Virus record (IMG/VR): IMGVR_UViG_3300027788_001900
Coordinates: 1-57,195 of that record
From: a virus
Length of the DNA stretch: 57,195 nucleotides
Direction: 5' to 3' (one strand)
Numbering within the stretch: position 1 is the stretch's first letter; each line of letters opens with the position of its first letter. A program made the position numbers and the translations under genes. Under the pieces are notes generated by a model, which saw only the letters and a list, made by a program, of their open reading frames with translations, made no database searches and was not told the origin of the DNA. Shown one piece after another: positions 1 to 57,195 of the stretch.

Positions 1-969
1 CTCATTTCAAATTCTTTTTGTCCTTTTGTGTAATATGCCTTAAAAAATAAGTTATCTTCTAGATCTCCAAAGAAATGATTCGACTTACCAACATAAAATT
101 TTGCTTTTGGATAAACTTCTGTAACTTCTTTCTTTGTTTTTGCATCTAAAACTTCTTTATCAAATTCTTTTACAAATTTAGCTTCATTAACTACTGATTC
201 ACTTAAACTTTTTAATAATTCCATTGCTTTTTTATATGCAATATCAATATTACCAGAGTCCTCTATATCTTTAATATCTTTTTTAGTTACCTTAACTTTA
301 GCTTCAGTAACTAATGATTCACTAAACACAATAAAAGATTCACCTGATGAATTAGGATCTTCTAATTCTTTATATTTAACCTTTGACTTATCTAAAAGTT
401 TTTTAGTTTCAGGCCATGAATTAACATATGAGTAAATAATAATTTGATTATCATCTTCTGGATTAACTCCTGCCTTTTTCCATATCTTTTTAGTTTTGTC
501 ATCAGCATCAGAAAGATAATCAATTTGACCACCTATCTTTTCAAGATCCTTCATAACGTTGCTTGCTTCATTTGTCTTTAAAGTTTCCTTGCATGCTTTA
601 TGAAACATATCTATATGTTTTGAAGCAGCTTTTTTATCGCCACTTTCAATCTTATCAATTGCATCTAATAAGTCTTTTGCTTCTCTGTGATAATTTACAT
701 CAGTAAACGAATCAAATAATTTATTAAGTTCACCAATAGGTGTATTAACATTAACCTTTAAGCCTGCTGCTAGCATACCACCGTAATCAAAAGTCTTTGA
801 CCACATATCACCTGCTTTAAATTTCTTTGCTTCATTTAAATCTTCATCTGTTACTTCAGGATGCATTTTCTTAATTTCATCATCACTAAGACCGTCTTCC
901 TTCATCTTTTTAGCATGACCACTAAGCTCTTCGTTAATATAAGTAGCATATGTTTTAAAATATTTCATA
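1..969 (-). CDS. putative internal head protein, capsid-targeting-like N-terminus (3' part cut by window edge)
   Basis: The frame opens at an ATG at 967-969 and runs off the left edge without a stop, so the C-terminus is missing (at least 323 codons seen). The N-terminus MKYFKTYATYINEE resembles the T4 internal-protein targeting peptide, which begins MKTYQEFIAE. Two internal copies of an ESVVNEA / ESLVTEA motif match the hydrophobic-x-Glu|Ala pattern cut by T4-type prohead proteases. The rest is Lys/Glu/Asp-rich with no domain I recognise. It is the last visible member of a block of similarly built genes. Packaging in the head is inferred from the motif only. Confidence 0.6.
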
Positions 970-971
970 TC

Positions 972-1451
972 TTATTTTATTTTACCTTTTTTGACATCTC
1001 TTTGAACATCTTCAGCTGCGTTAAGAAGATACTGTGCAGCTCTTTCCATATCAACATTCATATATTTAGCAATTGATCTCATTGCTCTAGTTGCAATTCT
1101 TTTTTCTTCTGAACTTGCAGATTCATTAACATCCTCAGCATCTTCTCTAACAGTTTTATACTTTGCCTTAATGTCTTTTAATTCTTTTGCTAATTTACCT
1201 TTAGCATATCTTTGAATACCCCAATTAAAAGAAGCATCAAATAACATATTAAAAGGTAATTTACCGAACTTCTTACCGTATGTTGATTGTTCCAACCAAG
1301 CTAAATAAGCCTCAGCCATTTCCTTAGAAAGCTTTATTCCTTCTACATCTTTAGCATCACCATTAATAACGGATTTAAGTAATACCTTTGCTGCAGCTCT
1401 TCCTTCATTAATACTATCAGCATTCTCATTAATTGTCTTAATATGTTTCAT
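972..1451 (-). CDS. putative internal head protein with capsid-targeting-like N-terminus
   Basis: A 159-residue protein, mostly charged and probably helical. It begins MKHIKTINENADSINEG, a longer version of the KT...INE pattern found in its neighbours, so processing after the INE triplet would be expected if the T4 rule applies. No catalytic motif is recognised. An exact copy of the late-promoter-like motif lies 18 nt upstream of the ATG, so this gene and the partial gene after it (2 nt gap) may form their own late unit. Function unknown beyond a likely virion role. Confidence 0.6.
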   Translation of the reverse strand: MKHIKTINENADSINEGRAAAKVLLKSVINGDAKDVEGIKLSKEMAEAYLAWLEQSTYGKKFGKLPFNMLFDASFNWGIQRYAKGKLAKELKDIKAKYKTVREDAEDVNESASSEEKRIATRAMRSIAKYMNVDMERAAQYLLNAAEDVQRDVKKGKIK

Positions 1452-1469
1452 TTTAATGTAATTTCTTTT

Positions 1470-1480
1470 TTTATATATTC
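1470..1480 (-). promoter_or_regulatory. late-promoter-like motif GAATATATAAA
   Basis: Exact 11-base match, reading GAATATATAAA on the minus strand, 18 nt upstream of the start at 1451. It touches the stop codon of the preceding gene. Resembles the T4 late promoter element TATAAATA. Confidence 0.5.
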
Positions 1481-2025
1481 TACCAAGGATTAGTACTTTT
1501 TAATCCTAACTGTTTTCCAAATAAACTCGGACCATAACATGCCCAAAACCCTGCTTTATTAGGATCCATCTTTTTCTTTTGATCACATTGATGTCTTGCC
1601 CAAAAACTAGCAGACGCACCTGGGTCATCATTCTTTACAGATAATCCTGGATCTCCCCATTCAATTTTCTTAGCTACGATTGATCCAGTTTCTTTGTCGG
1701 TTCTTCCACTATTACGATAAACAATAAACTTTTTATTGCCACCTCTTTCTGGTGAATCAAGTTTAACTTTCTTAGTTCTACCTGATTTACGATCTTTATA
1801 TATGGCTTTAGTTCCAACCTCAAGGTTTTTAGCCATGAAGCCACTTTTTCCATTTAATACCATATTTCCTTTATCCCAATACTCTTTTGCTTCTTCAAAC
1901 AATTTACCATGTGCATCGGAGCCTAAGCGAAAAACAGTGTCATCTAAACCTATACCATTATCTACATGATATTTAAGTTCTTCAGATACTTTATCAAAAC
2001 CTTTAAAGTCTTTTATAAATTTCAT
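1480..2025 (-). CDS. conserved phage protein, DUF5872-like C-terminus
   Basis: A 181-residue protein. Residues about 17-50 (KYHVDNG, then TVFRLGSDAH) resemble a module common in virion-associated proteins of marine T4-type phages. The C-terminal part (ASFWARHQCD, then WACYG) resembles the DUF5872 pattern of SFRARHxC followed by a WSC motif. The start MKFIKDFKGFDKVSEE is a weaker version of the capsid-targeting-like peptide of its neighbours. The ATG overlaps the stop of the upstream gene by one base, indicating one transcript. The assignments rest on remembered family patterns; biochemical function is unknown. Confidence 0.6.
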   Translation of the reverse strand: MKFIKDFKGFDKVSEELKYHVDNGIGLDDTVFRLGSDAHGKLFEEAKEYWDKGNMVLNGKSGFMAKNLEVGTKAIYKDRKSGRTKKVKLDSPERGGNKKFIVYRNSGRTDKETGSIVAKKIEWGDPGLSVKNDDPGASASFWARHQCDQKKKMDPNKAGFWACYGPSLFGKQLGLKSTNPW

Positions 2026-2894
2026 TATGCTTCTCTTTCTTTCTTTGTAAATTCTGAAGGATTTTTAATTGGTAGTTTATCAGCCTTACCTTCATCTCTA
2101 ACTTCTTTAGCAATATCAGCATCAGCCTTACCCCAAGTACCTTTACCTTTTTCTAAGAATGCATTTACTCGAGCATAACCCCAAGCAACCTGTGGTACAC
2201 CTGCACGGTGACTACTATTCCAAGCATCTAGCCCTCTTCTCATTACTAATCTTAATAGTCCAATAGGTACGCCACTTTCAGTAGCCTTATCCTTTAATGC
2301 TTTTTCAATGTCAGCTGACAATTTACTTCGATCACCTTCAGCTTTTTCTGCCTCATTAATTGCACTGTTATATAATTCCTCTATCCACTTTAAAGTATCT
2401 GGCTTTTTTGGTAGATTTTTAAATTCAGCAAACATTTCCTTTGTGAACTCTTTTAGATTTTTAGCTTCTTTAGCCATTATATCAATTTCACCCATTGCAG
2501 ATTCTGTAATATCATCATCCTTAGGTTTATCATGAACATAGCCTAGTTTACTCATTCTTTCATGATCTTCTAGTTTTTCTGCTTTATAACCTTTTCCTGT
2601 TTTTGGATCATACATCATATGAACTTTGAATTCTTCATTCATAGATTCATTAGCTATATTATATTCTACATCTTCTATAAAGTCAGCTTCAGTAAAATCT
2701 CCGTATTCATCAAAGAACTTTTTAGTATTTCTTTTTGACATTCTTTCTAATGACTTAACATAATCTTTAGCATACTTTAATGGTACACTACCTGATTTTA
2801 TAGCTTTCTTTAATCCTGCATCCATTACTCTTGCAATATCATTCCAACCTTTTGCTTCGTTAATAAAGTCTGTATATGTTTTAAAGTGCTTCAT
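2025..2894 (-). CDS. putative internal head protein, DUF5824-like domain
   Basis: A 289-residue protein starting MKHFKTYTDFINEAKG, the clearest capsid-targeting-like peptide in the window: FINE followed by Ala fits a prohead protease site (I-x-E|A). The segment GYKAEKLEDHERMSKLGYVH around residue 105 is a pattern I recognise from other large phages. Residues about 205-260 (VPIGLLRLVMRRGLDAW, then WGYARVNAFL) fit the DUF5824 pattern. It lies 2 nt downstream of the next block member and overlaps the following gene by one base. No enzymatic role is assigned. Confidence 0.65.
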   Translation of the reverse strand: MKHFKTYTDFINEAKGWNDIARVMDAGLKKAIKSGSVPLKYAKDYVKSLERMSKRNTKKFFDEYGDFTEADFIEDVEYNIANESMNEEFKVHMMYDPKTGKGYKAEKLEDHERMSKLGYVHDKPKDDDITESAMGEIDIMAKEAKNLKEFTKEMFAEFKNLPKKPDTLKWIEELYNSAINEAEKAEGDRSKLSADIEKALKDKATESGVPIGLLRLVMRRGLDAWNSSHRAGVPQVAWGYARVNAFLEKGKGTWGKADADIAKEVRDEGKADKLPIKNPSEFTKKEREA

Positions 2895-2896
2895 AA

Positions 2897-4120
2897 TTAA
2901 TTCATTTTATATTTTTCAACTCTAGCATCAATTTTTGCTTTCTTAGCTTTTAACTGAGTATATTCCTTTTCTTGATTCATCATAATAGAACCATATTTGT
3001 CTGCCATCACCCCACCTTCTGGTTCAGCTTCTTGTTCCATGTCTCTAAATGTTTGAGCCATTTCTTCAGCCTTATCTTTAATGTCCTGGGCTATATCTGT
3101 TTGTGAATCTAATAAATCCATATACTTATCAAAACTAATTCTACGTGATTTTACTTCAGCTGGTTTAAATTTAGGTAATTCCATTATTGCTCGAGTACGT
3201 CTGAATGCCATAAGAACTGGATCATTAATATCAGTTGCTTCATTAACTACTGATTCATCTTTAGGAACGCAGTTATTAACTCTTTTACCAGATTTAGAAG
3301 ATATTTTTGTTTTAGGAGATCCTATTTTATAATCATCCCAGCATGGATCAGCATTTTCATCTAATGATTCCTCAATATTAGTATCAGCAATCTCAATATC
3401 TTCAGCGGATAAATCCATCATAGCATCATATGCTATATCCTCATCCTTAAAGTAATAAACATTACTTCCATTAATATCAAACTTCTTACGATACATATCA
3501 TCTAGGATTGCTAAAGCTTTTTTAGCATCTCTAACAGATACCTTTATATAGTAGCCTTTACCAGGTCCTTCATTTACTTTACTTTCTAAGAATGCCGCAT
3601 CTATATCAAACTTTTTATCTATTTTCTTAATTAACTTTCCCATATTAGATAATGAAATACCTGCTTCTTTCATAGCATCCTTTAAAGTAATTGCTCCTGC
3701 AACAACTCTCTTAGCATATCCTAAAGGTGAAAAATTACTTTCATAGATTGTACCTACTACTTCTTCTTTAGATTTAAATGATTTTGCTGATTTTTTAATC
3801 TTTTTAATGAATTCCTCAATGGTCCTCATTTGATTAGGATCATAGTCATCTCCATTATCATGCCTACCAACCATATTCTCTACGGAGTTTTTAAGCTCCC
3901 ACATTGCGTTTAATTGTTTTGGTAACCTAGTAAACTTAGCTTCAGTAACTACTGATTCATTTACCTTGTCATAAAGTTGAGATTTTGAATTCCAAGCCCA
4001 GTCAGCAGAATCAAAAGCTTTAAGCTTTTTTGCCTTTTGGTAATCCTCAGATGATAAGTGTGCAGCTTTAAGATTTACACGCTCATTGACAAATTGTCTA
4101 TAGTCTGGTATGTGTTGCAT
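2897..4120 (-). CDS. putative internal head protein with repeated protease-site motifs
   Basis: A 407-residue protein, the first of the left block to be transcribed. It starts MQHIPDYRQFVNERVN, a variant of the targeting-like peptide. Near residues 54-62 and 287-295 it carries ESVVTEA and ESVVNEA, encoded by nearly identical 21-bp sequences that also occur in the gene at 1-969. The segment DPCWDDYKIG...NNCVP is a cysteine-containing pattern seen in many marine phage proteins. The middle is Lys/Glu-rich and probably helical. A late-promoter variant sits 15 nt upstream. A virion role is inferred. Confidence 0.6.
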   Translation of the reverse strand: MQHIPDYRQFVNERVNLKAAHLSSEDYQKAKKLKAFDSADWAWNSKSQLYDKVNESVVTEAKFTRLPKQLNAMWELKNSVENMVGRHDNGDDYDPNQMRTIEEFIKKIKKSAKSFKSKEEVVGTIYESNFSPLGYAKRVVAGAITLKDAMKEAGISLSNMGKLIKKIDKKFDIDAAFLESKVNEGPGKGYYIKVSVRDAKKALAILDDMYRKKFDINGSNVYYFKDEDIAYDAMMDLSAEDIEIADTNIEESLDENADPCWDDYKIGSPKTKISSKSGKRVNNCVPKDESVVNEATDINDPVLMAFRRTRAIMELPKFKPAEVKSRRISFDKYMDLLDSQTDIAQDIKDKAEEMAQTFRDMEQEAEPEGGVMADKYGSIMMNQEKEYTQLKAKKAKIDARVEKYKMN

Positions 4121-5673: not shown

Positions 5674-6273
5674 TTATTCTTTGCTTTTTTGACCAAGATA
5701 TCCACTATGATGTCTTTGTGAATATTCTTTTTTAGTAAATTTAATTTTCTTTATTAATTCTACAATTAAAATATCTCCTATTACTTTCATTAATGTTGTT
5801 GACGTAGTTGGTGTTAAACCTAATGGGCATACTTCTTTTGTATTTCCAGTATGAAGAGTTATATCAGATTTGTTTGCCAAAATACTATCTTTATCACCTG
5901 TGATGCAAATAATAGATATATGAGGATACATATTTTTTGATAATTCAATTAATTCTAATATTTCTCTAGTTTTACCAGAATTAGATAAAAGAACAAGAAT
6001 ATCATTTTTTTGAAGTATACCTAAATCACCATGTTGAGCTTCACTAGGATGTAAATAAACAGAAGGTGTTCCTGTTGAATTAAGTGTAGATGAAATGTTT
6101 AATGCTATTTGACCAGCCTTTCCCATCCCTGATAATATAACTTTACCATTAGATCCTATATTATGAACCTTTTGTTTTATTCTATTAACTGCTAATTCAA
6201 AAGAAAAGTTTACGGGAATATTTTTTATTTGTGCTGCTTCATATTCTAGCAATTCCTTAATTGATTCTTCCAT
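5674..6273 (-). CDS. SIS-domain sugar-phosphate isomerase (KdsD/KpsF-like, no CBS domains)
   Basis: A 199-residue SIS-domain protein. GMGKAGQIA (49-57), HPSEAQHGDLG (75-85), SNSGKT (97-102) and CPLGLTPTTSTT (149-160) match the D-arabinose-5-phosphate isomerase family, which converts ribulose-5-phosphate to arabinose-5-phosphate for Kdo-type sugars. Cellular members are about 320 residues with two C-terminal CBS domains; this one ends after the SIS domain, with only a relic-like HHSGYLG tail. It is the last gene of the glycan island and overlaps the dehydratase stop by one base. The exact substrate is uncertain. Confidence 0.85.
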   Translation of the reverse strand: MEESIKELLEYEAAQIKNIPVNFSFELAVNRIKQKVHNIGSNGKVILSGMGKAGQIALNISSTLNSTGTPSVYLHPSEAQHGDLGILQKNDILVLLSNSGKTREILELIELSKNMYPHISIICITGDKDSILANKSDITLHTGNTKEVCPLGLTPTTSTTLMKVIGDILIVELIKKIKFTKKEYSQRHHSGYLGQKSKE

Positions 6274-7265
6274 TATCTCAATGACACCTTACCTTGTAAA
6301 ACATCCATCCAATGATCACACATTTCATGCATCATAGATTCAAAAGTATATTCTGGTTTCCAATTTAAAGTTTCTCTAATCTTTGTTGAATCTCCTTTAA
6401 GATAAGGTAATTCTTCAGGTCTCATAAACTTAGGGTTTTGTGAAATATAATCCTTGTAGTCTAAATCTAAATATTTAAACACCAACTCACACATTTCTCT
6501 AACTGAATGCGTTTCCATTGTTGATACAACAAAATCATCAGGTGTATCATGATTTAACATTGCATGCATTGCTATAACATAATCTTTAGAATGACCCCAA
6601 TCTCTATAAGAATCCATATTACCTAATTCTAATTTATCCTGTAAACCTAATTTAATAGAACATGCAGCTTTAACAACTTTATTAGTTACAAAGTTACTTC
6701 CTCTTCTTGGGGATTCATGATTAAATAAAATTCCATTTACAGCATGTAGGTTATGAGCTCTTCTATAATGTCTTACTATGTTATATCCAAATACCTTTGA
6801 ACATCCATAAGGAGATACTGGATTCATAATACTACTTTCTCTCTGAAAGCCATCATCCTCAACAGTTAAACCAAACATTTCAGAAGAAGATGCTTGATAG
6901 AATTTAGCAGTAGGGCATGCTCTTCGGTATGCCTCCAATATATTTAATACACCTACAGCATTTGTTTGGACTGTATATTGTGGTACATCAAAACTTACTC
7001 TTACATGACTCTGTGCTGCTATGTTATAAATTTCATCTGGTTGAATTTGCTCAAGTAATCTTTCTAAACTTCCTTGATCTGATAAATCACCATAATGAGT
7101 TGTGAGTTGACCACTTTCATATGCAGTCGTTAACCTAGCTGATTGATTTTCTGATGTAGAATTTCTTCTCACAGTTCCATGAACTTCATATCCTAGATCT
7201 AAAAGATACTCGGCAAGATAAGATCCATCTTGTCCATTAATTCCTGTTATAAATGCTTTTTTCAT
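6273..7265 (-). CDS. gmd: GDP-mannose 4,6-dehydratase
   Basis: A 330-residue short-chain dehydrogenase/reductase-fold protein. It has the NADP-binding GINGQDG (8-14), a SSSEMFG segment (126-132) and the catalytic YxxxK (Y153, K157 in SPYGCSK), plus HESPRRG typical of GDP-mannose 4,6-dehydratases. The reaction makes GDP-4-keto-6-deoxymannose, the branch point for GDP-fucose, GDP-perosamine and GDP-rhamnose. The next upstream gene is a PLP aminotransferase, which points to a GDP-perosamine-type product; no GDP-fucose synthase is present in the window. Confidence 0.93.
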   Translation of the reverse strand: MKKAFITGINGQDGSYLAEYLLDLGYEVHGTVRRNSTSENQSARLTTAYESGQLTTHYGDLSDQGSLERLLEQIQPDEIYNIAAQSHVRVSFDVPQYTVQTNAVGVLNILEAYRRACPTAKFYQASSSEMFGLTVEDDGFQRESSIMNPVSPYGCSKVFGYNIVRHYRRAHNLHAVNGILFNHESPRRGSNFVTNKVVKAACSIKLGLQDKLELGNMDSYRDWGHSKDYVIAMHAMLNHDTPDDFVVSTMETHSVREMCELVFKYLDLDYKDYISQNPKFMRPEELPYLKGDSTKIRETLNWKPEYTFESMMHEMCDHWMDVLQGKVSLR

Positions 7266-7277
7266 TTTCTTAATTTG

Positions 7278-7910
7278 TTATTTGGTTTGTAAATAAGGAT
7301 CAACTCCTTCTTTTTTATTAAAGACTGCCATTTTTGTTAAATCTGGCCAATCTGTGATAGTCCATTGTCTTGGTTTTTGTTTTACTGCTTCATCAAAATA
7401 ATCTAAACCTAACTGAGCAGTTTCAGGTGTCATATAATAATGGTACCCATATGTTTCAATATCTTGATCTCGCCATGGAACATCTGGTAACCTTCCATCA
7501 TATGACATTTTCTTTAGTGCAATTGCATCTTCTTTATTATCACAAAGTATAGCTCCACCTCTACCTAATGATAAATGCTTTTGGAATTGAAAACTTAAAC
7601 ACATAAAAGATCCTGGTATATAACTATCCTTTTTCCATAAAACAGCTGCATCATAAATAGGTTTAAGATGTTCATTTACTTTATAATAATCTTGCCACTC
7701 TTCATCTCTCCACTTTAAATTAATGTTTAATTTATTTGCAAGAAAAGGTACTGATATGTAAGTTCTTTTAGGAACAGTAATTGTATTTATATTTTGATGT
7801 CTTAGACATAATTCTATACCATGAGTACATGCATCTAAACATACTGCATAAGGTGCTCCAAAAAATTCAGCAAGTTGTTTTTCTAATTGTGTTACAGTCT
7901 CAAAGCTCAT
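7278..7910 (-). CDS. short DegT/DnrJ-type PLP aminotransferase
   Basis: A 210-residue protein matching the large domain of sugar aminotransferases: an N-terminal glycine/alanine region (FFGAPYAVCLDACTHG) and a PLP-lysine motif FQKHLSLGRGGA with K111 as the likely Schiff-base lysine. Family members are usually about 370 residues, so the small C-terminal domain is missing. With the adjacent dehydratase and acyltransferases it could form a 4-amino-4,6-dideoxymannose (perosamine) route. Whether the short form is active alone is unknown. Confidence 0.75.
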   Translation of the reverse strand: MSFETVTQLEKQLAEFFGAPYAVCLDACTHGIELCLRHQNINTITVPKRTYISVPFLANKLNINLKWRDEEWQDYYKVNEHLKPIYDAAVLWKKDSYIPGSFMCLSFQFQKHLSLGRGGAILCDNKEDAIALKKMSYDGRLPDVPWRDQDIETYGYHYYMTPETAQLGLDYFDEAVKQKPRQWTITDWPDLTKMAVFNKKEGVDPYLQTK

Positions 7911-7960
7911 GTTATAATTTGTTTTATTATATATTATATAAGATAAATGATGATTGTTTA

Positions 7961-8770
7961 TTATAAATTATATAGTGTGTTAATTTTAGTAGATAGTAAA
8001 GTAGCAACATTTGAAATTGCAGATACATCGGCTCTTAATAAAAAGTTACACATACTTAAAGTATAAATTTCTTTAATACATTCTTTACTTAAATTATATT
8101 TATGAAATTCTCTATTATTTCGCATCCTATCATATTCATCAGTCTGAGGATCATCATCACTAGCCCTAAAAGCTTCATGGTATATTATTGGTATACTTAT
8201 ATGTTTACTTACTTCCTCTATTGCTCTATGATCATCAGTTGCTATAAATAATTGTTCTATGTTTGGATTTTTATTTAAAATTTCCTGTATCCTAATTAAG
8301 TATTTAGATAGAGGAGATACTTTATGATGGTGTAACATATCGGTTAATCTTATTTGTACACCTAAAGTTATTTTATCTTTAAGGTTATTATTATAATAAG
8401 AATCTAATTCGTTCTGAAGATAATCTTTTAATTTAAAGTTGTTATTAAATCTATACTGCAAATCACTGTAATCAACTAAAGGAACCTTATTATAATTTAA
8501 GAATGCATTTTCAGATTTATTAGTTACGATGTTATCTGTGTCAGGCTTTGGCATTTGATCATAATAATATTCCCAACAATTATTAGTATTAAATTTATTA
8601 AAATCGTCTTCAGTACATACACAAGAATTAGTTTCCATATCCACATATAAGTTATCATCTTTTTTAGAAGCTAATAAAGAATTGAGAGTTATAAAGATGT
8701 TACCACCCATACCTACACCAGCAAATTTGTGTGCCGATGATACTTTTTGGAATTGTAAAATTTTATCCAT
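7961..8770 (-). CDS. fucosyltransferase-like protein (NodZ/FUT8 or O-fucosyltransferase fold)
   Basis: A 269-residue protein with GVQIRLTD (137-144) followed by LFIATDD (174-180). This pair resembles the HxRxTD and ATDD motifs of the GDP-fucose-binding domain of the GT23/GT65/GT68 superfamily. It shares this architecture with the gene at 11122-11985, so the island holds two such enzymes. It would transfer a deoxyhexose from a GDP-sugar; acceptor unknown. It lies directly before, and overlaps by one base, the GT10-type gene. Confidence 0.6.
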   Translation of the reverse strand: MDKILQFQKVSSAHKFAGVGMGGNIFITLNSLLASKKDDNLYVDMETNSCVCTEDDFNKFNTNNCWEYYYDQMPKPDTDNIVTNKSENAFLNYNKVPLVDYSDLQYRFNNNFKLKDYLQNELDSYYNNNLKDKITLGVQIRLTDMLHHHKVSPLSKYLIRIQEILNKNPNIEQLFIATDDHRAIEEVSKHISIPIIYHEAFRASDDDPQTDEYDRMRNNREFHKYNLSKECIKEIYTLSMCNFLLRADVSAISNVATLLSTKINTLYNL

Positions 8771-9654
8771 TATAGAGAAGGTTCTATGAATTGTTTAAAA
8801 ATATAATCTTCAGCACACAAAAGATCTTGTGCTCTATTATAATTATCTAAAATAGCAGCTTTCTTACTATTATATAAATCTACAGTTAAATCCTTAATAT
8901 CAAAATCATCATCCATTATTATAATCCCATCAGTATTAAAAAAATCTCCAATGTTATCTATACCATAATAAACAGGAATAGTACCAGTCATAAAGCAATC
9001 AGTTAGCTTTTCAGTAAACATATTTGAATATGTTGCATTTTCCATTGCAATAGAAAAGCAATAATCTTTTAAACCATCAGCTTTATCTTTTATAAAATTA
9101 AAACCGCTACCAAAATGATCAACTCCTAATTTAGAATATTTCTCAATCATTTCTTGCCTATACTCATGTTCTTCACACATTACCTTATTAGATGCAATCA
9201 TAGACACTAATTTACTTTTAGGATATATTTTACCTTCTGTTAAGAATGATTTACCAGAGCATAGTGTTAATTGAAAAATATCATCCATTTTAGCTAACTC
9301 AGTATCATGCGTGAATACTTTAATAAATTTTTCTTTTAATTCTGGTATATTGTTTTTACACCACTCATAAAGAGAAGTCTTTTCATCCTCGTAAGATGGT
9401 GTACCGTCTTCTAGTGTTACATATTTTCTTTTAGAAAAATATGAAACTGATTTAGCTTCACAAAGCCATGCATATTCTTTGGTTTTTCTATAAATACTAG
9501 CAGTACGACCAACCATATAATTATCAATATGTATAGTTATATTAGCGCTTGCATAACCTCTTATCCATTCAACATATTTAGTAGGTAGACCTGTTGATGA
9601 TATTGTATGTGAAAAGCCACCACCACCCATATTGATCTTGGTTTTTTTAATCAT
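8770..9654 (-). CDS. GT10-family (alpha-1,3-fucosyltransferase-like) glycosyltransferase
   Basis: A 294-residue protein. Residues 205-231 (ENATYSNMFTEKL, then GTIPVYYG) fit the GT10 signature ExxxxxxYxTEKLxxxxxxGxVPVYxG that binds GDP-fucose. The reaction would be addition of fucose, or a related GDP-6-deoxysugar, in alpha-1,3/4 linkage. It overlaps its acyltransferase neighbour by 8 nt. The N-terminal half has a glycine-rich segment but little else recognisable. Confidence 0.8.
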   Translation of the reverse strand: MIKKTKINMGGGGFSHTISSTGLPTKYVEWIRGYASANITIHIDNYMVGRTASIYRKTKEYAWLCEAKSVSYFSKRKYVTLEDGTPSYEDEKTSLYEWCKNNIPELKEKFIKVFTHDTELAKMDDIFQLTLCSGKSFLTEGKIYPKSKLVSMIASNKVMCEEHEYRQEMIEKYSKLGVDHFGSGFNFIKDKADGLKDYCFSIAMENATYSNMFTEKLTDCFMTGTIPVYYGIDNIGDFFNTDGIIIMDDDFDIKDLTVDLYNSKKAAILDNYNRAQDLLCAEDYIFKQFIEPSL

Positions 9655-10180
9655 TACCCATCTCTAATTTTTTTGCATTTTCTTTAATTTTATTTCCGTC
9701 AATTACTTTTATTAATTTAGCAGGATTTCCTTTATATACACCCCAAGGAATAGTATCACCTATTAATAAACTACCAGCAGATAGTAAAACACCTTCTCTT
9801 AAAATAGATCCTGGTAAAACCATTGCATTGCTTCCAACATTAGAAAATCTTTCCATTATTACCGGTTCAATAATTTGCCTTCCTTTAAATTCTTTAGGTA
9901 TCATAGCTCCAAATAAACCACTATCATCAAATCTATCAGAACCGCAAACAATTCTTGCACCAGCCATTATGTTATTAAAACCATTACATTTAAATACACC
10001 AGTCTTTCCTCCAATTATTGTAACGTATGGTGCAATATGTACATAATCACCTATTGTTGCATTTACTGTACAATAAACACCTTTATCAATAGCAACATGG
10101 TTACCTATCTTTGGGTCTATTTTAAACTCTGCATCCTTATGCATAAAAATATCTTTATCCTCAAAATTTATATTATTCAT
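9647..10180 (-). CDS. hexapeptide-repeat acyltransferase (paralogue 1)
   Basis: A 177-residue left-handed beta-helix protein with repeated hexapeptide turns (GNHVAIDKGV, IGDYVHIAPYV, VGSNAMVLPGSI) and the C-terminal WGVYKGNPAK motif of sugar O- and N-acetyltransferases. It is paralogous to the next upstream gene (shared GNHVAIDKGV, GDYVHIAPYV). Next to the aminotransferase it may acetylate an amino sugar, as PerB does with GDP-perosamine. It overlaps both neighbours by 8 nt. Confidence 0.85.
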   Translation of the reverse strand: MNNINFEDKDIFMHKDAEFKIDPKIGNHVAIDKGVYCTVNATIGDYVHIAPYVTIIGGKTGVFKCNGFNNIMAGARIVCGSDRFDDSGLFGAMIPKEFKGRQIIEPVIMERFSNVGSNAMVLPGSILREGVLLSAGSLLIGDTIPWGVYKGNPAKLIKVIDGNKIKENAKKLEMGND

Positions 10181-10691
10181 ATCCTAATTCTTTAGCATGT
10201 TTTAAAATTATTTCTTTATCTCGTTTCTTAACTGGTCTTGCAGGACTACCAATATAAATAGTCCATGGCTCCAAGTCTTTAGTTGCTAATGAATGCGCGC
10301 CTAATATAGCACCTTCACCAAAGGTTACACCAGGCATAATACAGCAATTAACCCCACAACCAGAATATTTTTCAAATGTAATATCTGCAAACATAATTTC
10401 TCGATATTTAGCAGGAATGGTTGGTCCTACTAATCCCTTTCCTGTATAATCTTCACTACCTGCAACTATCATAGTCCCAGCCGCACAAAAAGAAAAATCT
10501 TTAAATGTAACAGTTGTATCCTTTCCTCCTACACTTACTACATAAGGAGCAATATGAACATAATCACCTATATCTACTTTAGTAGAAAACTGAACGCCTT
10601 TATCAATAGCAACATGATTACCTATTTTACTACCTTCTTTTTGTTTTATCCATGCATCTTCATGGATGTATACATCCTTTCCTATTTTCAT
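10173..10691 (-). CDS. hexapeptide-repeat acyltransferase (paralogue 2)
   Basis: A 172-residue left-handed beta-helix protein of the same design as its downstream neighbour: IGNHVAIDKGV near the N-terminus, GDYVHIAPYV, a central VNCCIMPGVTFGEGAILGAHS turn series, and WTIYIGSPARPV at the end. Tandem paralogues suggest two acylated positions or two sugar substrates. It overlaps the cupin gene by 4 nt, consistent with coupled translation. Confidence 0.85.
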   Translation of the reverse strand: MKIGKDVYIHEDAWIKQKEGSKIGNHVAIDKGVQFSTKVDIGDYVHIAPYVVSVGGKDTTVTFKDFSFCAAGTMIVAGSEDYTGKGLVGPTIPAKYREIMFADITFEKYSGCGVNCCIMPGVTFGEGAILGAHSLATKDLEPWTIYIGSPARPVKKRDKEIILKHAKELGYE

Positions 10692-11098
10692 AAAAATGTT
10701 TTGTCTAATTTTTGACCTTCATAAGGACCTGTTTTATATTCATAGACCAGAGTATCATCTTCCATTATTTCATAATTATGACCACCTTCTAATGTAAAAG
10801 ATGCATCACCTGGTTTTAATATTGGTGTTGCAATAATTTTATCATCTATATCATAAAAGATACACTTAACACTACCTCTTATGACTATCCATGATTCTTG
10901 TGCAATAACATCTCTAGTTCGGTTTTTCCAAATATGCTTATGAGGTTTAAATGTTTTACCTTTTTCCATTTTTAAAGTAGAACATTGAATAAATTGTTCC
11001 TCAGGTATTAAATCAACTCTAGGTTCTGTTATTTCATCTACTCTTTGTATTATATGTAATAGCTTAGTAGGATCAACTTTTGAATATATTTTTTCCAT
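10688..11098 (-). CDS. cupin-fold protein (WbuC-like)
   Basis: A 136-residue single-domain cupin. Candidate metal ligands are H53 and H55 (PHKH), E68 (QESW) and H107 (GGHNY), followed by a YEYKTGPYEG segment. Cupins of this kind accompany acyltransferases in O-antigen loci and in marine phage glycan clusters; a sugar isomerase or sugar-binding role is likely but the substrate is not evident. It starts the run of three overlapping genes leading into the acyltransferases. Confidence 0.75.
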   Translation of the reverse strand: MEKIYSKVDPTKLLHIIQRVDEITEPRVDLIPEEQFIQCSTLKMEKGKTFKPHKHIWKNRTRDVIAQESWIVIRGSVKCIFYDIDDKIIATPILKPGDASFTLEGGHNYEIMEDDTLVYEYKTGPYEGQKLDKTFL

Positions 11099-11121
11099 AA
11101 TTTATTATTATATGTTTGTTT

Positions 11122-11985
11122 TTATTGTTTGTTTAATGTGGATATGTTATAACTTTTTATAATTGTATCAGAAAAAACTAAAGATGCATTAGCTACATTG
11201 CTAGTTCTATGTAAAAGATATTTACATTTACTTAACATCATCATATCTAAAAATCCATGTTCCCAAAATTCTTTACTTTCATGATTTATTAATTGCAGCT
11301 CATATGAATTTTCAGATTCTTTTTCACATCTATTTAAATAATCAATAAATTTAATTCTATTACTATATTTATTTACTAGTTTTTTTATTGATTCATTATT
11401 GTCAGATGCTACAAATATTGTCTTAATCTCTTTATGTTCTTTTAATATTAAATCAATCATTTTTTCAAAATCATTAAAATTAAGAATACCATACTCTGGG
11501 TGAATCCCATTCATGTCTGTTAATCTAATATGAACACCTAATGCATTATTGAAATCTATTTTTTCTTCTTCATTTTTAATAAGCATTTTCATTCTCTTAT
11601 TAAATTTTAATTTTCTAGCCAATTTTCTTAAAAATAAAATATCAGATTGATCTGCTTTCACGTCTACATTGCGTTTGGAATTTTTAATGGAGCATGGTCC
11701 TGTAAAACCTTTTATGCGTTCATAATCTTCAGTTATCTTAGGTTGATCAAAAATAAAATCAATCATATTTAAATCTTCAGGATTATAGGAGGATTCCATT
11801 TTATCAATCTTTACATATTCTTTTATTTTATTATCATAAGTCCATGCTAAGTTTTGTTGAAAAGATATATTTTTAATATTTTCTCCATCAGTTTTAAGTG
11901 CACTATTCAGCCATTTCATACTGTAAATCATTCCCATAACTAAAGAAAATATACCACCGGCTGCTATATAGATATGTTTTTTCAT
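11122..11985 (-). CDS. fucosyltransferase-like protein (second HxRxTD member)
   Basis: A 287-residue protein with VHIRLTDM (151-158) and IFVASDN (around 194-200), matching the GDP-fucose-binding motifs of the NodZ/O-fucosyltransferase superfamily and the layout of the gene at 7961-8770. The first 28 residues are hydrophobic and glycine-containing, which may be the first strand-loop-helix of the fold rather than a membrane anchor. The stop of the upstream GT25 gene region overlaps its start by 4 nt. Confidence 0.6.
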   Translation of the reverse strand: MKKHIYIAAGGIFSLVMGMIYSMKWLNSALKTDGENIKNISFQQNLAWTYDNKIKEYVKIDKMESSYNPEDLNMIDFIFDQPKITEDYERIKGFTGPCSIKNSKRNVDVKADQSDILFLRKLARKLKFNKRMKMLIKNEEEKIDFNNALGVHIRLTDMNGIHPEYGILNFNDFEKMIDLILKEHKEIKTIFVASDNNESIKKLVNKYSNRIKFIDYLNRCEKESENSYELQLINHESKEFWEHGFLDMMMLSKCKYLLHRTSNVANASLVFSDTIIKSYNISTLNKQ

Positions 11986-12650
11986 TTTAAATGTTTTGTA
12001 TTATCTTCAAATTTTGTTATCATCCAACTATAGTCAATAACTTGATTATGTATATCACTAAAGCTATTTTCTTGTATAGCAGTTATAGGGTATGTGCAAT
12101 ATGCATTTCCATTTTCTTGGCCATTTTCTGCTAACCATACATCTATTATTTCAATTGCCTTTTTATCAAATGCTTTTATAAGCTTATCATAGAATCTTTC
12201 ATGATATGCAATAGCATGAGTTGCAAAACCTTCTTTTAATTTTAAAAGATTAGAATTGACTTTATCTAAAGGGATATGAGTATTGCTACCTAAATAAAAC
12301 AAATCCCATTCATGTTCTTTTAATTGTTCTACTGAATCATTAAAGTATTTATGATTAACAAACTTAACATCATCCTCAAGCACTAACACAGATTTCCATC
12401 CATTTGCTTTAGCCATTTTTATTATACTTATATGAGAAGCAATACAACCATATTCACCAATCTTTATTTTTTTACCATCACTTATATACCAGTCATACTC
12501 AGCCTGTGGTCTTTTTATTGCAGGAAATCTTTCAACTAAGTCTAATATATTAAGTTCTTTAAAAATATCATTACATTGCTGTAACCTATCAGTACGCTTT
12601 TCTAAATTTATTAGAAATACTTTATCAAAATATTCAAATCCTTTTCTCAT
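11982..12650 (-). CDS. GT25-family glycosyltransferase
   Basis: A 222-residue protein. The N-terminal FLINLEKRTDRL, CIASHISIIKMA (69-80) and VLVLEDD (88-94) match the GT25 family, which includes the lipooligosaccharide galactosyltransferases of Gram-negative bacteria. The LEDD acidic motif is the likely metal or nucleotide-sugar site. The gene at 14309-14998 is a second member. It overlaps the downstream gene by 4 nt. Sugar and acceptor unknown. Confidence 0.85.
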   Translation of the reverse strand: MRKGFEYFDKVFLINLEKRTDRLQQCNDIFKELNILDLVERFPAIKRPQAEYDWYISDGKKIKIGEYGCIASHISIIKMAKANGWKSVLVLEDDVKFVNHKYFNDSVEQLKEHEWDLFYLGSNTHIPLDKVNSNLLKLKEGFATHAIAYHERFYDKLIKAFDKKAIEIIDVWLAENGQENGNAYCTYPITAIQENSFSDIHNQVIDYSWMITKFEDNTKHLK

Positions 12651-12652
12651 GT

Positions 12653-14301: not shown

Positions 14302-14308
14302 TATTCTT

Positions 14309-14998: not shown

Positions 14999-14999
14999 A

Positions 15000-16532: not shown

Positions 16533-16533
16533 T

Positions 16534-21964: not shown

Positions 21965-22258
21965 TTATTTAAATTCTTGTTTTGGTTTTTGTTTAATTTC
22001 TTTTCCTTTTGGAGCTCTGTGATAAACTTGAGTTGACCAGGGGTCCGTCTCGGCGCATTGGCAAGATGAGATATGCTCCCCGCACCTGGCGCAATCTTCT
22101 GAAACATCGTTAAGTTCATCTTCTAATTCTTTTTCTAATTTCTTATCTATTCCAGCATGATCACCTTTTTTATGATCTTTTTCTATTTTATCGCCAGCAT
22201 TGTCATGAGATTTATCTCTAACTTCTAAAAGAAAATCTGCGTACGTTCTTATAAACAT
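21965..22258 (-). CDS. small zinc-motif protein with capsid-targeting-like N-terminus
   Basis: The start is placed at ATG 22258, giving MFIRTYADFLLEVRD, because this restores the targeting-like pattern (TYADFLLE) seen elsewhere and puts the late-promoter motif 15 nt upstream; an in-frame start further upstream (22291) would lie in the preceding gene. The 97-residue protein is charged, with a CARCGEHISSCQC zinc motif near residue 66. It is probably a small virion-packaged protein. Function unknown. Confidence 0.55.
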   Translation of the reverse strand: MFIRTYADFLLEVRDKSHDNAGDKIEKDHKKGDHAGIDKKLEKELEDELNDVSEDCARCGEHISSCQCAETDPWSTQVYHRAPKGKEIKQKPKQEFK

Positions 22259-25550: not shown

Positions 25551-26762
25551 CTATTTAATTGAAAATCTTTTGCCGCCATCTTTCTCGAGGGTCTTTTCAA
25601 TCATTGTATTTGCGTATTCTTCTAGTTTAGTTAAACTTTCTTTATTAAGAGGTTTCTTATAAAAATCTTCATAGATATGCTTATAAGCCTCAACGGTCGA
25701 ATCAAAAGGTACTCCAGGTTGTGCATTTGATTCAATAATATATACTTTTCCATTTTTACCTTTCATTACGTCAAAACACATATAAGGTAAATCTTCATAG
25801 ATCTTACAGAATCTTTCTAAGACTTTTCTATAATCTTCAGGTAAATCACTTAAGCTCCTTTTTGCATAACCAAATTCCATTTCACCTTTAGCACTACCTT
25901 TACCAGTTTTAGCTTTTTCATTTAATGGAGTTCTTTCCATCCAAAAGATAGGCTTACCTTTAAAGTTTATAAATCTATGCTCTTCTTCTTTATCAATATA
26001 TTCTGAAAATGTATCAAAGATCTTTTCATCTACATCTTCCATTAAATCTGGTTTATTAATAATCTGAATACCTTTTCCGCTATGACCTTCTGCAGGTTTT
26101 GCAATAATAGGAAATTCTAGTTGCTCTAATGCATCATTCTTAGAATATACTGTCTTAGGTATATTTTCATCTTCTCCAACCAGTTTATGGAATTCTTCTT
26201 TAGATCCAGATTTTGATATGTGGTCTGGGTGATTATAAACATTTTCTTTTTTAATCTTACCAGCCTTTATTAGTTTATTAACTGTATCTGAATGATATGT
26301 TAAAACTGGATAGTCTGGATTAATATCAATGTCATGCATGTTATTTTCATGAACTTGTGTAAAGAACTTATCTCCAGCAAAACCTTTATAAGTCCACCAT
26401 CTTTGCCCACTGTCTTCTCTTAGTGCTAAATAAACTTTACCTAAACCATCTTCAATATCAACAGATTCTTTTAGTAAATCTTCTCTACCTAATTGTTTAT
26501 ATACTTCTTTTCTGGTTTTCTCCATCTTTTCAGCATACTTAGGATCACTCTTTCTATTAAAAACTATTTGCTGTGTTAAAGAACCACTAATCTTTTTAAC
26601 ATCTTTCTTTCTGGTTTTAATTAACCATGCGGCTAAATCCTTTATAGAAAGATCTTTAAATCTACCTTCAGCATCAGGTGCATCTGAATGATGGAAATCT
26701 GGTGCACCTTTAGGTTTCTTTTCTGTTAGGAACTGTTCAAAAAGTTTTAAATATTTCAACAC
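25551..26762 (-). CDS. ATP-grasp ligase-like protein with capsid-targeting-like N-terminus
   Basis: A 403-residue protein. The first 16 residues (MLKYLKLFEQFLTEKK) resemble a capsid-targeting peptide; the start codon is GTG. Residues about 25-100 form a basic helical module (KDLAAWLIKTRKKDVKK). Residues about 190-350 are ATP-grasp: FPIIAKPAEGHSGKGIQII supplies the ATP-binding lysine and glycine loop, and YIIESNAQPGVPF holds the metal-binding Glu and Asn. ATP-grasp enzymes join a carboxylate to an amine or thiol; the substrate is unknown. The targeting-like start hints at delivery by the particle. Confidence 0.65.
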   Translation of the reverse strand: MLKYLKLFEQFLTEKKPKGAPDFHHSDAPDAEGRFKDLSIKDLAAWLIKTRKKDVKKISGSLTQQIVFNRKSDPKYAEKMEKTRKEVYKQLGREDLLKESVDIEDGLGKVYLALREDSGQRWWTYKGFAGDKFFTQVHENNMHDIDINPDYPVLTYHSDTVNKLIKAGKIKKENVYNHPDHISKSGSKEEFHKLVGEDENIPKTVYSKNDALEQLEFPIIAKPAEGHSGKGIQIINKPDLMEDVDEKIFDTFSEYIDKEEEHRFINFKGKPIFWMERTPLNEKAKTGKGSAKGEMEFGYAKRSLSDLPEDYRKVLERFCKIYEDLPYMCFDVMKGKNGKVYIIESNAQPGVPFDSTVEAYKHIYEDFYKKPLNKESLTKLEEYANTMIEKTLEKDGGKRFSIK

Positions 26763-33656: not shown

Positions 33657-33683
33657 AATCTATATATTTAATTTTAATTGTTG

Positions 33684-33757
33684 TGGAGAATATCGGAGTC
33701 GAACCGATGACCTCCTGCGTGCAAGGCAGGCGCTCTAGCCAGCTGAGCTAATTCCCC
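33684..33757 (-). tRNA. tRNA-Ala (anticodon TGC)
   Basis: A 74-nt cloverleaf. The acceptor stem GGGGAAT/ATTCTCC includes the G3-U70 pair that identifies alanine tRNAs. D arm, T arm (TTCGACT loop) and the anticodon stem CCTGC/GCAGG with loop CTTGCAC are all present. The discriminator is A. CCA is not encoded, so the host CCA-adding enzyme is needed. It lies 14 nt downstream of tRNA-Gly. Confidence 0.95.
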
Positions 33758-33771
33758 TTTTAATAATATTG

Positions 33772-33844: not shown

Positions 33845-33848
33845 ATTG

Positions 33849-54454: not shown

Positions 54455-55423
54455 TTACAGGTTTGGTCTTAATCTTGCAAACTTTTCAGATACAGATTCT
54501 ACTAACGGTGTAACAGATTCACCTATTGCTGATAGTTTCTTTTTAGCATCAGTCTCTTTTTTCTTTAGTTCAGCAATATCTTCTTTACTATCTTCTAACT
54601 TTTTCATTATTACCTGAACCTGCTCATCAGATACTCTACCTAATTTCTGATCTCTTTTAGCCTGATCTAAATCTTTCATTGATTTAGTCATTGAAGCTCT
54701 TTCATCTTCGATAGATTTATTATAAGCTTTAATATCAGCTTCTATTTTTGCACTACCGTCATCCTTTCTTTCTTCTTTGGATTTCTCACCAGCAGCTTTA
54801 GCATCTGCCATTTCTTTATCCGCTGCTTTGCTAGCCTTATCTTCTATATCTTTATTAGTATTATCTGCTTTAGCAACAGGAGTTTCTTTAGCAACAGGAG
54901 TTTCTTTAGTTGCAGGAGTTTCTTTAGTTTCTTTATCTTTTACTGGCTCTTCTTTTTTAGCAGCAGTAGATTCAAAATCCTTTATACCACCAGCTAAGTT
55001 AGTTGCTTTTTTATTTAATTCTGTTTGTTTTACTTTTAATTGTTTAGCCTCTTCACCAGTAGCAGACTTAAGTATAGTTTTATTAGCAGCAACAGAAGCC
55101 TTTACTTTTGCGAGAGACGAAACCTTTTTTAATATAGGTGATGTAGCTAAACTATCCATTCTATCAATCACGCCTTTGGCAGTATCCTTGAGTGCATCAT
55201 TCTTTGCAGCATTAGCCTTTGTTAACACAGCATTCTTCTCAGGATCTTTTACTGTAGATTTTTGTTTCTTTTTCTCAAAATTAACATCATTAAGAGCAAC
55301 TGCCACTTTAGCCTTAACTAGCTTTTTAGCATTATTCTTAATCTTTACGTATTTAATAGGAGTTTTAATTACATCCATTATTCCTTCATTTATAAACTCA
55401 GAATATGTTTTTAATTTTGCCAT
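54455..55423 (-). CDS. putative prohead core or internal head protein
   Basis: A 322-residue Lys/Ala/Glu-rich protein starting MAKLKTYSEFINEGIM, close to the T4 capsid-targeting peptide; FINE|G fits prohead protease processing. The body is largely helical and coiled-coil with PVAKETPVAKETP-type low-complexity repeats near 165-190 and ESVTPLVESVSEKFARL at the C-terminus. It lies just downstream of the major capsid gene, after a terminator and with its own late-promoter-like motif. Core scaffold or packaged protein cannot be distinguished from sequence. Confidence 0.6.
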   Translation of the reverse strand: MAKLKTYSEFINEGIMDVIKTPIKYVKIKNNAKKLVKAKVAVALNDVNFEKKKQKSTVKDPEKNAVLTKANAAKNDALKDTAKGVIDRMDSLATSPILKKVSSLAKVKASVAANKTILKSATGEEAKQLKVKQTELNKKATNLAGGIKDFESTAAKKEEPVKDKETKETPATKETPVAKETPVAKADNTNKDIEDKASKAADKEMADAKAAGEKSKEERKDDGSAKIEADIKAYNKSIEDERASMTKSMKDLDQAKRDQKLGRVSDEQVQVIMKKLEDSKEDIAELKKKETDAKKKLSAIGESVTPLVESVSEKFARLRPNL

Positions 55424-55525: not shown

Positions 55526-57195
55526 TTATACAATCTGAGCACCACCAGCGAACGTAAAGTTCATTGTGTAATACATTAATTCAGGATTAAATCCAGCATC
55601 TACTAAAGCGAATCTTGATTTAACTGCAATTTTAGGAGCCATAGTTCCTTCAGCAATTGTTTCAACTGATTCAGCCATTAAGTAAGGCATAAATACAATA
55701 CCAGGAGAATTACCATCACCTTTACGTCCTACACAAATTGTATAGTCATTAAAAGCTCTGTTAGGATCTACATAAATTGTTACCCCAGCAATCGCACCGA
55801 TTGGATATAAAGATCCACCAGCTTGGTTAACTGTATTAGATAACGGATATGCAATAAATCCAGCTACAGATTGAAGAGCAGTTGCCATTTCTCCACCTGT
55901 TACTGCAAACGTTGCAGGTCCTCTTCTTCCTCTAGTAGCAATTAAGTTACTTGCAGCAAGAATTTTAGTATAGATTCTACGTTGTAGAGTTCCTTGTGTA
56001 TTACCACCACCAGCAGTTACAGCACCTAATACAGCAACAGTTGCAATTGCATTGTTGACGTTGTTAGGTCCTAAAGGTAGGGCAGCATTCGCGACAGGTG
56101 CAGCAGCAGCAGTAAATGCTTCTGATAAAACAGTACCTGAGACAGCTTGAGTATTAACAGCGTTTGTTACACCGTTTCTAAATATTCTGTCTAGAATGTA
56201 TTTGTTAATAGATTGAGTTAACTCATTTACCAATACTGCTTCAACTTGAGCTACAGCATCAATACCGAATTGCTTCAGATCTTGAACTTGTTCTCTAGTT
56301 ACACCAGCAGCTACTTGGAAAGTATCAGCGGCAACAGATTTGTTAAATAAAGTTAATCCCATGATGTTATCAACAGTAGACTCACCTACACCTCTAAGGT
56401 AAGGATCGTTTCCGTTCATATTCTCAGTTGCAAAACCAGGAGCACCAGCAGCAGGGTTGTTAGTTGGTTGAAAAGCATTACCAGAAAAACCAGTAATATG
56501 ATCTTCTAACGCTTTAACATGTCCTAAACCAGAACCACCATTAGCGGCAGTTTGGAAAGTACCAGCGATTCCCATAGTTGCAGAACCTACACCACCCGTT
56601 TGAGTAGCACCAGCAAAACCAGCTTGAGCAGCACGAGTTGCACCAGCAGCAGGAGCAGCAGGCCAACCAGCAGCACCAGCTCTAAAGAAGTTACCACCTT
56701 GTACAATTGCTACGTAAATAGATTCAGCAGCACCTTCTCCACCTTGTGTGAACGTGTTAGCGATTCCATTGAATCCTGCAGCGTTAATAGCAGCAGTTGA
56801 TGATCTTACTCTAAAAATTGATAAACCATCGATTCTAGAATAACCTACAAAAGTTAATTCGTAAGAAGCACCATTAGTTGCAACTACACCAGATGCAGTA
56901 CAATAGATGATGTCATTTACTGTAAAGTTAGAACTAACACCATTAGCGTCAATTGCATTAACTTTAATTAGTAAAGAAGTACCTACTACATCTTGACCTC
57001 CAGTTAGTGGAGCTCCAGTTGTTCTACCTCCACCATAAACAAAGTCTAGGTAAGTTAAAACGCCCATTGGGCCTTGCATTGGTACTACAGGAACTAAGTC
57101 TAAACCTACAGTCTGTGCTGCTACTTGCATTGCAAGTGGTAACAAAGAAAAAGGTCTGTCACCAGATCCAGTTACTTGTGCAGGGAATGCATTCA
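55526..57195 (-). CDS. major capsid protein (gp23-like), 5' end cut by window edge
   Basis: At least 556 residues, in frame to the right edge, so the true start lies outside. LVPVVPMQGPMGVLTYLDFVYGG (near the visible N-terminus) matches the conserved segment of T4-type gp23. An Ala/Gly-rich region (about residues 180-220 of the visible part) is probably an inserted domain. The C-terminal half contains AILAASNLIATRGRRGPATF and VKSRFALVDAGFNPELMYYTM, which fit the HK97-like fold of gp23. A strong terminator follows. The N-terminal propeptide cut by the prohead protease is outside the window. Confidence 0.9.
   Translation of the reverse strand, partial: NAFPAQVTGSGDRPFSLLPLAMQVAAQTVGLDLVPVVPMQGPMGVLTYLDFVYGGGRTTGAPLTGGQDVVGTSLLIKVNAIDANGVSSNFTVNDIIYCTASGVVATNGASYELTFVGYSRIDGLSIFRVRSSTAAINAAGFNGIANTFTQGGEGAAESIYVAIVQGGNFFRAGAAGWPAAPAAGATRAAQAGFAGATQTGGVGSATMGIAGTFQTAANGGSGLGHVKALEDHITGFSGNAFQPTNNPAAGAPGFATENMNGNDPYLRGVGESTVDNIMGLTLFNKSVAADTFQVAAGVTREQVQDLKQFGIDAVAQVEAVLVNELTQSINKYILDRIFRNGVTNAVNTQAVSGTVLSEAFTAAAAPVANAALPLGPNNVNNAIATVAVLGAVTAGGGNTQGTLQRRIYTKILAASNLIATRGRRGPATFAVTGGEMATALQSVAGFIAYPLSNTVNQAGGSLYPIGAIAGVTIYVDPNRAFNDYTICVGRKGDGNSPGIVFMPYLMAESVETIAEGTMAPKIAVKSRFALVDAGFNPELMYYTMNFTFAGGAQIV

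Follow-up and report, generated by a model that had tools for sequence, protein, structure and literature searches.

A probable T4-type capsid-targeting peptide at the head of diverse and modular proteins in a T4-superfamily phage fragment

Why do several otherwise dissimilar phage proteins begin with the same short peptide? The question is raised by IMG/VR record IMGVR_UViG_3300027788_001900, a 57,195-base linear virus fragment of a T4-superfamily phage that is referred to here, in its full length, as the window. A preliminary description listed seven genes in the window whose products start with a peptide like that of the T4 internal proteins, and suggested that they may be head-packaged proteins and thus candidate early anti-host effectors. 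Sequence comparisons give good support to the peptide being a T4-type capsid-targeting sequence (CTS), called the tag below, and injection and an early effector role are suggested by analogy with T4. Several tagged proteins also contain internal linkers of the form E-S-V-x-N/T-E^A, in which the caret marks a predicted cut; these linkers and the shuffling of the modules between them had been overlooked. It is likely, in our judgment, that the tagged proteins are precursors, several of them polyproteins, and that cutting by the prohead protease turns them into small head cargo, which would then enter the host.

The consensus of the tag is MKxIKxYxxFINE, with the glutamate usually at residue 13. 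A regular expression with the glutamate at residues 9-18 matches 5 of the 75 open reading frames (ORFs) of the window, against 0.31 expected from shuffled sequences. Among 880 distinct N-termini from 108 loci and the window, the motif glutamate peaks at residue 13 (36 N-termini), the shuffles giving ∼0.5 per position. A sequence profile reaches a score of at least 8 in 102 of 2365 N-termini, a set that includes the 29 seeds and in which homologues are not collapsed, compared with 4 of the 1866 internal decoys and 3 of the 2365 N-termini after shuffling; the glutamate is at residue 13 in 85 of the 102. The uncultured phage LR756500 alone has 32 tagged ORFs among 687, with 3.6 expected from shuffles.

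The proteins behind the tag are diverse. When bodies are compared without roughly their first 20 residues, the 116 proteins that score at least 7 fall into 63 families; a few false members are to be expected among the 116 at this threshold, which 6 shuffled N-termini reach. In 220 pairs of proteins from different families, the 24 bases upstream have a mean identity of 0.42, and the codons differ in 428 of 1521 pairs that encode identical residues. Recent duplication of the tag as DNA is ruled out by this 42% upstream identity together with the varied codons. The tag is thus kept at the protein level rather than as copied DNA, and it behaves as a module heading unrelated bodies.

The comparison with T4 used a control profile of nine columns that was derived from these phages with T4 sequences excluded. 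Applied to the 268 ORFs of T4, this profile recovers annotated internal virion proteins, with ipIII and ipII ranked first and second (21.4 each) and ipI fifth (6.1). Matches scoring at least 8 number none in T7, one each in lambda and SPO1, and five each in KVP40 and P-SSM2. The top ORF of the 329 in P-SSM2 is PSSM2_194, a member of the T4-GC190 family, which was detected by mass spectrometry in virions of cyanophage S-SM1 (PMC3037559; published sources are cited here for particular passages of each); the tag was scored in the P-SSM2 member and the virion detection concerns the S-SM1 member. In IPIII, mutagenesis is reported to show that residues 4 and 7 matter for targeting and residues 8 and 10 for processing, and that an aspartate at position 10 allows targeting and blocks cutting (PMC9026906). 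These four residues align with tag residues 7, 10, 11, and 13. Columns 7 and 10, which correspond to the IPIII targeting positions, hold the highest information after Met1, a ranking that is partly circular because the proteins measured had been picked with the profile. Residue 13 is glutamate in 31 of 43 families and aspartate in 4 of 43.

These results bear on the view that the peptide serves as some other signal, or that paralogues inherited it as a shared start, with no relation to the head. In this phage the tag is known from sequence alone and some copies lack a good cut site, as that view would allow, but the number of body families, the divergent upstream DNA and codons, and the recovery of T4 internal virion proteins by a T4-free profile all oppose it, and it is regarded as highly improbable.

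The same profile places T4 gp61.1 (54 residues, MKTFKEFIKE^DM; NC_000866 18966-19130, identical to L261:18966-19130) third in T4 at 17.7, after ipIII and ipII, making it by sequence a candidate for an unrecognised head-packaged protein. Further P-SSM2 genes with a tag of T4 length are PSSM2_114, 115, 211, and 213 (MRTFQEFL, MKSFKQFLEE, MKSLSQFIIE, V/MKTYQQF), the tagged genes of that phage lying at L320:4763-5529, L323:17737-19458, and L324:1902-2654.

A targeting peptide of this type would be removed by an S77 prohead protease. The protease was not found inside the window, which is extended in both directions by IMG/VR contigs 99.9-100% identical to it, G001 past base 1 and L005 and L006 past the gp23 end (L006 is 99.99% identical over the overlap). 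In L006 the protease (PF03420; 54 bits, cut-off 27) lies directly upstream of gp23 and is fused to a scaffold-like tail. This tail (L006:3107-4819) has a repeat with a 14-residue period (TEYLSENLD, SDYLAENVD and so on), each with an (I/L/V)xE-type site. The full N-terminus of gp23 in L005 and L006 reads MYANQLINE^AEV, which suggests that gp23 is cut after LINE. The closest gp23 relatives in the annotated collection belong to LR756500, a 462-kb phage, to Lak megaphages, and to others including Tenacibaculum phages. Of 555 gp23 loci, the best 80 were used, and LINE^AEV occurs in 70 of these 80, a figure partly built in because gp23 was recognised by the pattern NEAE(V/I)..TW. After removal of rows with little flanking sequence, 67 relatives were testable for the protease, called by its N-terminal letters rather than by a hidden Markov model, and 52 for the gene after gp23: the protease lies upstream of gp23 in 66 of 67, and a CTS-positive gene comes next after gp23 in 44 of 52. 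S77 is present in 10 of 11 related records. In Lak-B1 (MK250020 497276-497593) the S77 match contains two in-frame TAG codons, consistent with TAG recoding. T4-type capsid targeting is well supported because the T4 and P-SSM2 controls, the match of profile columns to IPIII, the S77 protease by gp23, and the unrelated bodies behind the tag all point to it, as does the INE^A start of gp23 in the near-identical contigs.

The internal linkers extend this picture to polyproteins. Polyprotein 1, cut by the left edge of the window and complete at 418 residues in G001, has predicted sites after DLNE46, ESLVTE222, ESVVNE262, and ESLTE343. Two or more matches to the linker expression are found in 27 of 2453 non-redundant ORFs, with 0.5 expected from shuffles. 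Of these 27, 8 are protease-scaffold proteins, 1 is the gene that follows the protease in G003, and 18 are of the cargo type, some of which have no recognisable tag. The packaging, cutting, delivery, and function that we infer for tagged proteins would run as follows. The CTS would dock the proteins into the prohead core, and the S77 protease would cut after the tag glutamate. In a polyprotein, disordered E-S-V-x-(N/T)-E^A linkers would connect modules very roughly 35-120 residues long. As the head matures, these linkers too would be cut by that protease, and a single tag would thereby load several small proteins. The mature pieces would stay with the DNA in the head and, by analogy with the T4 internal proteins, enter the host with it.

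Modules change neighbours at the predicted sites. The AYSDEQR module is C-terminal in polyprotein 1, after ESLTE^. In G004 it comes immediately after the tag (MKNFRTYGEFITE^AYSDEDR), and in G005 it has an internal position (ESAINE^KEYSDEER) and is followed by KETLTE^; AYSDEQR-type domains in 24 other phage proteins show no such flanking joints by eye. The GPGKGYYI module follows ESKVNE^ in the window gene at 2897-4120 and an N-terminal SLNE^ in G004, and the AKKFK and QIDYL modules occur in reversed order in polyprotein 1 and a 300-residue G004 protein. In the gp23-adjacent protein, GIMDVIK stands behind the tag in the window and GLLDFIK behind an internal SVNE^ in G002. The halves of the ATP-grasp family are found fused or alone, mostly behind a tag, and the invariant or nearly invariant columns of its 22-member alignment all lie within the tag. 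The near-identical proteins L188 (684 residues) and L190 (765 residues) are distinguished by 6 substitutions and by a single 81-residue unit whose end reads ESVVTEA. A site precedes the FVKEF module in 27 of 27 contexts, a count partly built in because the query included TEA from the upstream joint, and a site follows it in 22 of 24. Ungapped clustering of its neighbours (19 clusters upstream, 16 downstream) divides shifted copies too finely.

A restricted test of such context switches was made because broad homology listings mixed in ordinary gene homology. It covers 153 proteins chosen by the CTS pattern or two linkers, excludes protease-scaffold proteins and one scaffold-like protein, and uses a permissive site pattern. 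On the N-side, 45 of 115 switches (expected 3.2) lie no more than 6 residues from a site in both partners, and on the C-side 37 of 126 do (expected 3.5); the counts for a site in either partner are 67 (expected 35.9) and 64 (expected 39.5), respectively. A search of a genome collection of 84,980 species with polyprotein 1 gave 45 pattern-matching stretches, none encoding a relative, and therefore no cellular source was found by that search.

The shuffling could also be ordinary domain recombination, with the CTS removed in a single cut and the internal joints serving as flexible linkers of intact multidomain proteins. Cutting at the joints is read from their sequence, most ATP-grasp joints (KESVDIED, KESVDTES) are not canonical VNE^A, and multidomain injected phage proteins exist (PMC5512222). 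This account nevertheless seems unlikely: the joint has a protease-type consensus, is met repeatedly between unrelated modules, and also forms repeats within the protease-scaffold protein. In addition, a single module can be found behind an N-terminal tag site in one phage and behind an internal joint in a second.

Structure prediction provides further information on the joints and the modules. The C-terminal half of polyprotein 1 (residues 217-418) was modelled with AlphaFold after a first alignment, with three segments aligning at only 23-29%, was dropped; the model has a mean predicted local distance difference test (pLDDT) of 85.5 and a predicted template modelling score of 0.49. The only segments below 50 pLDDT are model residues 1-8 (ESLVTEAK) and 42-47 (SVVNEA), which are two of the three linkers. 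A Foldseek search with this two-domain model found no match in the PDB at E <= 0.001, and therefore gives no function for these C-terminal modules. The ATP-grasp protein model falls below 50 only at residues 1-32 (tag and tail) and 99-103 (ESVDI), and its best-matching folds include LysX/ArgX, synapsin, D-Ala-D-Ala ligase, and RimK. A tagged G001 protein has a CaMKII_AD/SnoaL domain (CaMKII_AD 6.4e-17) at residues 307-426, with a predicted cut at 302. In the left-edge genes, Pfam and PHROGs detect DUF5824 and the C-terminal end of phrog_3041 'cytidyltransferase'. Pfam on 8 large polyproteins returned no peptidase at E <= 0.01 and one sub-threshold zinc-finger match. The genes of family F3 in LR756500, including L148:13446-14279, are tagged and have leucine-rich-repeat-like bodies (LPKEIGNLTKL repeats) by inspection.

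Tagged proteins might instead be structural material of the prohead core that the protease breaks down and expels rather than delivers. Cleavage reduces the T4 core proteins gp22, gp67, and gp68 to fragments (PMC5694885), the product of 54455-55423 is rich in Lys, Ala, and Glu and may itself be a core component rather than cargo, and its counterparts adjoin gp23 in most relatives. As an explanation of the tagged proteins as a whole, the idea is quite improbable, since the cargo includes an ATP-grasp ligase fold, a CaMKII_AD/SnoaL domain, and, by inspection, leucine-rich repeats, the content differs among close relatives, and the predicted cut sites fall between folded modules and not within them.

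Several observations count against cutting and delivery of tagged polyproteins as a general rule. Alanine or serine follows the glutamate in only 13 of 43 families; because other, non-preferred residues are common there, cleavage of many tags may be inefficient or may fail altogether. The S77-positive phages PTm1, immuto, and G003 have 1, 0, and 2 tagged ORFs, near shuffle levels, so that the tag in this form is not universal among S77-positive phages. Some large polyproteins, such as L196, L197, and L206, have no clear CTS and start with MATVTMDAMDP or otherwise. In 70 of the 115 switches on the N-side and 89 of the 126 on the C-side, at least one partner has no site near the boundary, the third joint in the polyprotein 1 model is not of low confidence, and the head cargo of this phage is predicted here from its genes.

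All seven genes of the preliminary description are present in the window, on the minus strand (Table 1). Six of them score 10.5-24.0 with a profile built without window seeds; the longer version of 972-1451 reaches 5.5 and has no support from the profile alone. The proposed block of four genes at the left edge is real, but comprises five consecutive genes if 1480-2025, with its weakly matching start, is counted. The small or charged residue said to follow the glutamate is one of the preferred A, G, or S (here A or G) in only three of the seven. The peptide of 21965-22258 is kept in seven of the eight distinct relatives listed (bodies 37-74% identical), the eighth having a variant start. The near-identical contig that completes gene 1-969 (99.9% identity) contains five further consecutive tag candidates ∼12-16 kb past the left end of the window. 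In the scan of the window, ORF 24299-24940 scored 11.4; it reads like a sigma factor and was taken as a false positive.

Table 1. Coordinates of tagged genes, predicted tags and cut sites, and gp23 in the window; scores are those of the tag profile.
Feature	Position	Strand	Basis or remark
Polyprotein 1	3..968	-	322 of 418 residues inside window; complete in L111:10172-11428
CTS-like peptide MKYFKTYATYINE of polyprotein 1	930..968	-	Profile score 10.5
Polyprotein 1, predicted internal site DLNE^A, residues 43-47, ahead of AKKFKAGDMWS module	828..842	-	Same module after SIDLNE^ in G004
Polyprotein 1, linker ESLVTE^A, residues 217-223	300..320	-	pLDDT <50
Polyprotein 1, linker ESVVNE^A, residues 257-263, ahead of FVKEF module	180..200	-	pLDDT <50
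159-residue protein, MKHIKTINENADSINE^G, predicted site at residue 16	972..1451	-	Homologous segment follows internal VNE^G in L332
181-residue protein, MKFIKDFKGFDKVSE, weak CTS, absent from preliminary description	1480..2025	-	Score 0.5
289-residue protein with DUF5824, CTS MKHFKTYTDFINE^A	2025..2894	-	Pfam 5.1e-9; phrog_3041 1.9e-13; score 23.3
CTS-like peptide of 289-residue protein	2856..2894	-	Profile
289-residue protein, predicted internal site AINE^A, residues 178-182, ahead of DUF5824 part	2349..2363	-	Sequence
407-residue polyprotein, CTS MQHIPDYRQFVNE	2897..4120	-	Score 11.0
CTS-like peptide of 407-residue polyprotein	4082..4120	-	Profile
407-residue polyprotein, linker KVNE^SVVTE^A, residues 52-61	3938..3967	-	Sequence
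407-residue polyprotein, linker ESKVNE^G, residues 179-185, ahead of GPGKGYYI module	3566..3586	-	Module directly behind N-terminal SLNE^G in G004
407-residue polyprotein, linker ESVVNE^A, residues 289-295	3236..3256	-	Sequence
97-residue protein, CTS MFIRTYADFLLE, Glu at residue 12	21965..22258	-	Score 14.1
403-residue two-module ATP-grasp protein, GTG start, CTS MLKYLKLFEQFLTE	25551..26762	-	Pfam ATPgrasp_YheCD 3.4e-7; model and fold; score 19.0
ATP-grasp protein, joint LKE^SVDI, residues 97-103, boundary of N-module and ATP-grasp module	26454..26474	-	Halves separate in relatives; residues 99-103 pLDDT <50
322-residue Lys/Ala/Glu-rich protein adjoining gp23, CTS MAKLKTYSEFINE^G	54455..55423	-	Score 24.0
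CTS-like peptide of gp23-adjacent protein	55385..55423	-	Profile
Major capsid protein gp23, N-terminus lost at window end	55526..57193	-	PF07068 2.7e-28

The major capsid gene was named by Pfam, and the other structural and replication genes named in the window, which include terminase, sheath, clamp-loader, and topoisomerase-like genes, by inspection of translations. Genes for tRNA-Ala, tRNA-Gly, and a transfer-messenger RNA (tag DNAELAMAA) are located at 33683-34192. Positions 5674-17127, upstream of the cargo block, contain genes resembling those of sugar metabolism and glycosyltransferases, and two proteins encoded on opposite strands (15000-16532 and 53142-53966) have in common an N-terminal RRSIKRI..EP stretch and a GGGPSL motif, both by inspection.

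The closest known kinds are the T4 internal proteins and the polyvalent proteins. In T-even phages, a conserved CTS is already known to precede diverse bodies (PMC3012670). IPI, IPII, and IPIII of T4, and also Alt, resemble the proteins described here in their short N-terminal peptide with the same aromatic spacing, (I/L)xE cut site (predicted here), S77 protease, and diverse bodies (PMC9026906, PMC3012670). They differ in the length of the tag, which has 10 residues in T4 and 13 here, and in number, with 3 of 268 ORFs tagged in T4 compared with the 32 of LR756500. Internal joints and module shuffling are not described for the internal proteins in the passages cited, which do note that Alt is processed at its C-terminus. 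Polyvalent proteins, for which Iyer et al. (2017, PMC5512222) have a set of 131 domains, likewise consist of shuffled, disparate domains, and their predicted fate is processing and injection together with phage or plasmid DNA. Modules with separate histories, few of them named domains, are likewise found here. By their descriptions the two differ in that zincin-like or assemblin-like peptidase domains are proposed inside polyvalent polypeptides, although not in all, whereas a T4-type CTS and repeated joints fitting a separate prohead protease occur here. The inner body and ejection proteins of phiKZ and SPN3US (PMC5694885, PMC10052503) are also head-packaged, and a prohead protease trims them, cutting some propeptides at several points; as described, these multiple cuts lie in propeptides (mostly >100 residues in SPN3US), whereas the predicted sites here lie between folded modules. 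DarB of P1 (PMC9024508) is similar, by description only, in that this large defence protein has a signal at its N-terminus that takes it into the capsid. In the literature within scope, from which most subscription papers and preprints fell outside so that absence is unproven, no CTS-tagged, prohead-protease-jointed, shuffled polyproteins were found for T4-like phages.

There is perhaps an even chance that these proteins form a modular delivery cassette, in which one CTS brings a polyprotein into the head, the prohead protease dices it at ESVNEA linkers into up to ∼7 small proteins, and recombination at the linkers exchanges modules among T4-superfamily phages, whose population would thus have an interchangeable library of injected anti-host and anti-defence proteins. 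If the polyprotein explanation is true, the joint might be put to use for loading several proteins into a phage head from one gene, and a 13-residue tag and a 6-7-residue joint would predict from sequence which genes of large phages encode proteins that enter the cell with the DNA, and the same signals would mark the start and end of the mature proteins. Dozens of unstudied head-packaged proteins would thereby be predicted in phages that have not been grown, with candidates in known phages such as T4 gp61.1 and the P-SSM2 genes.

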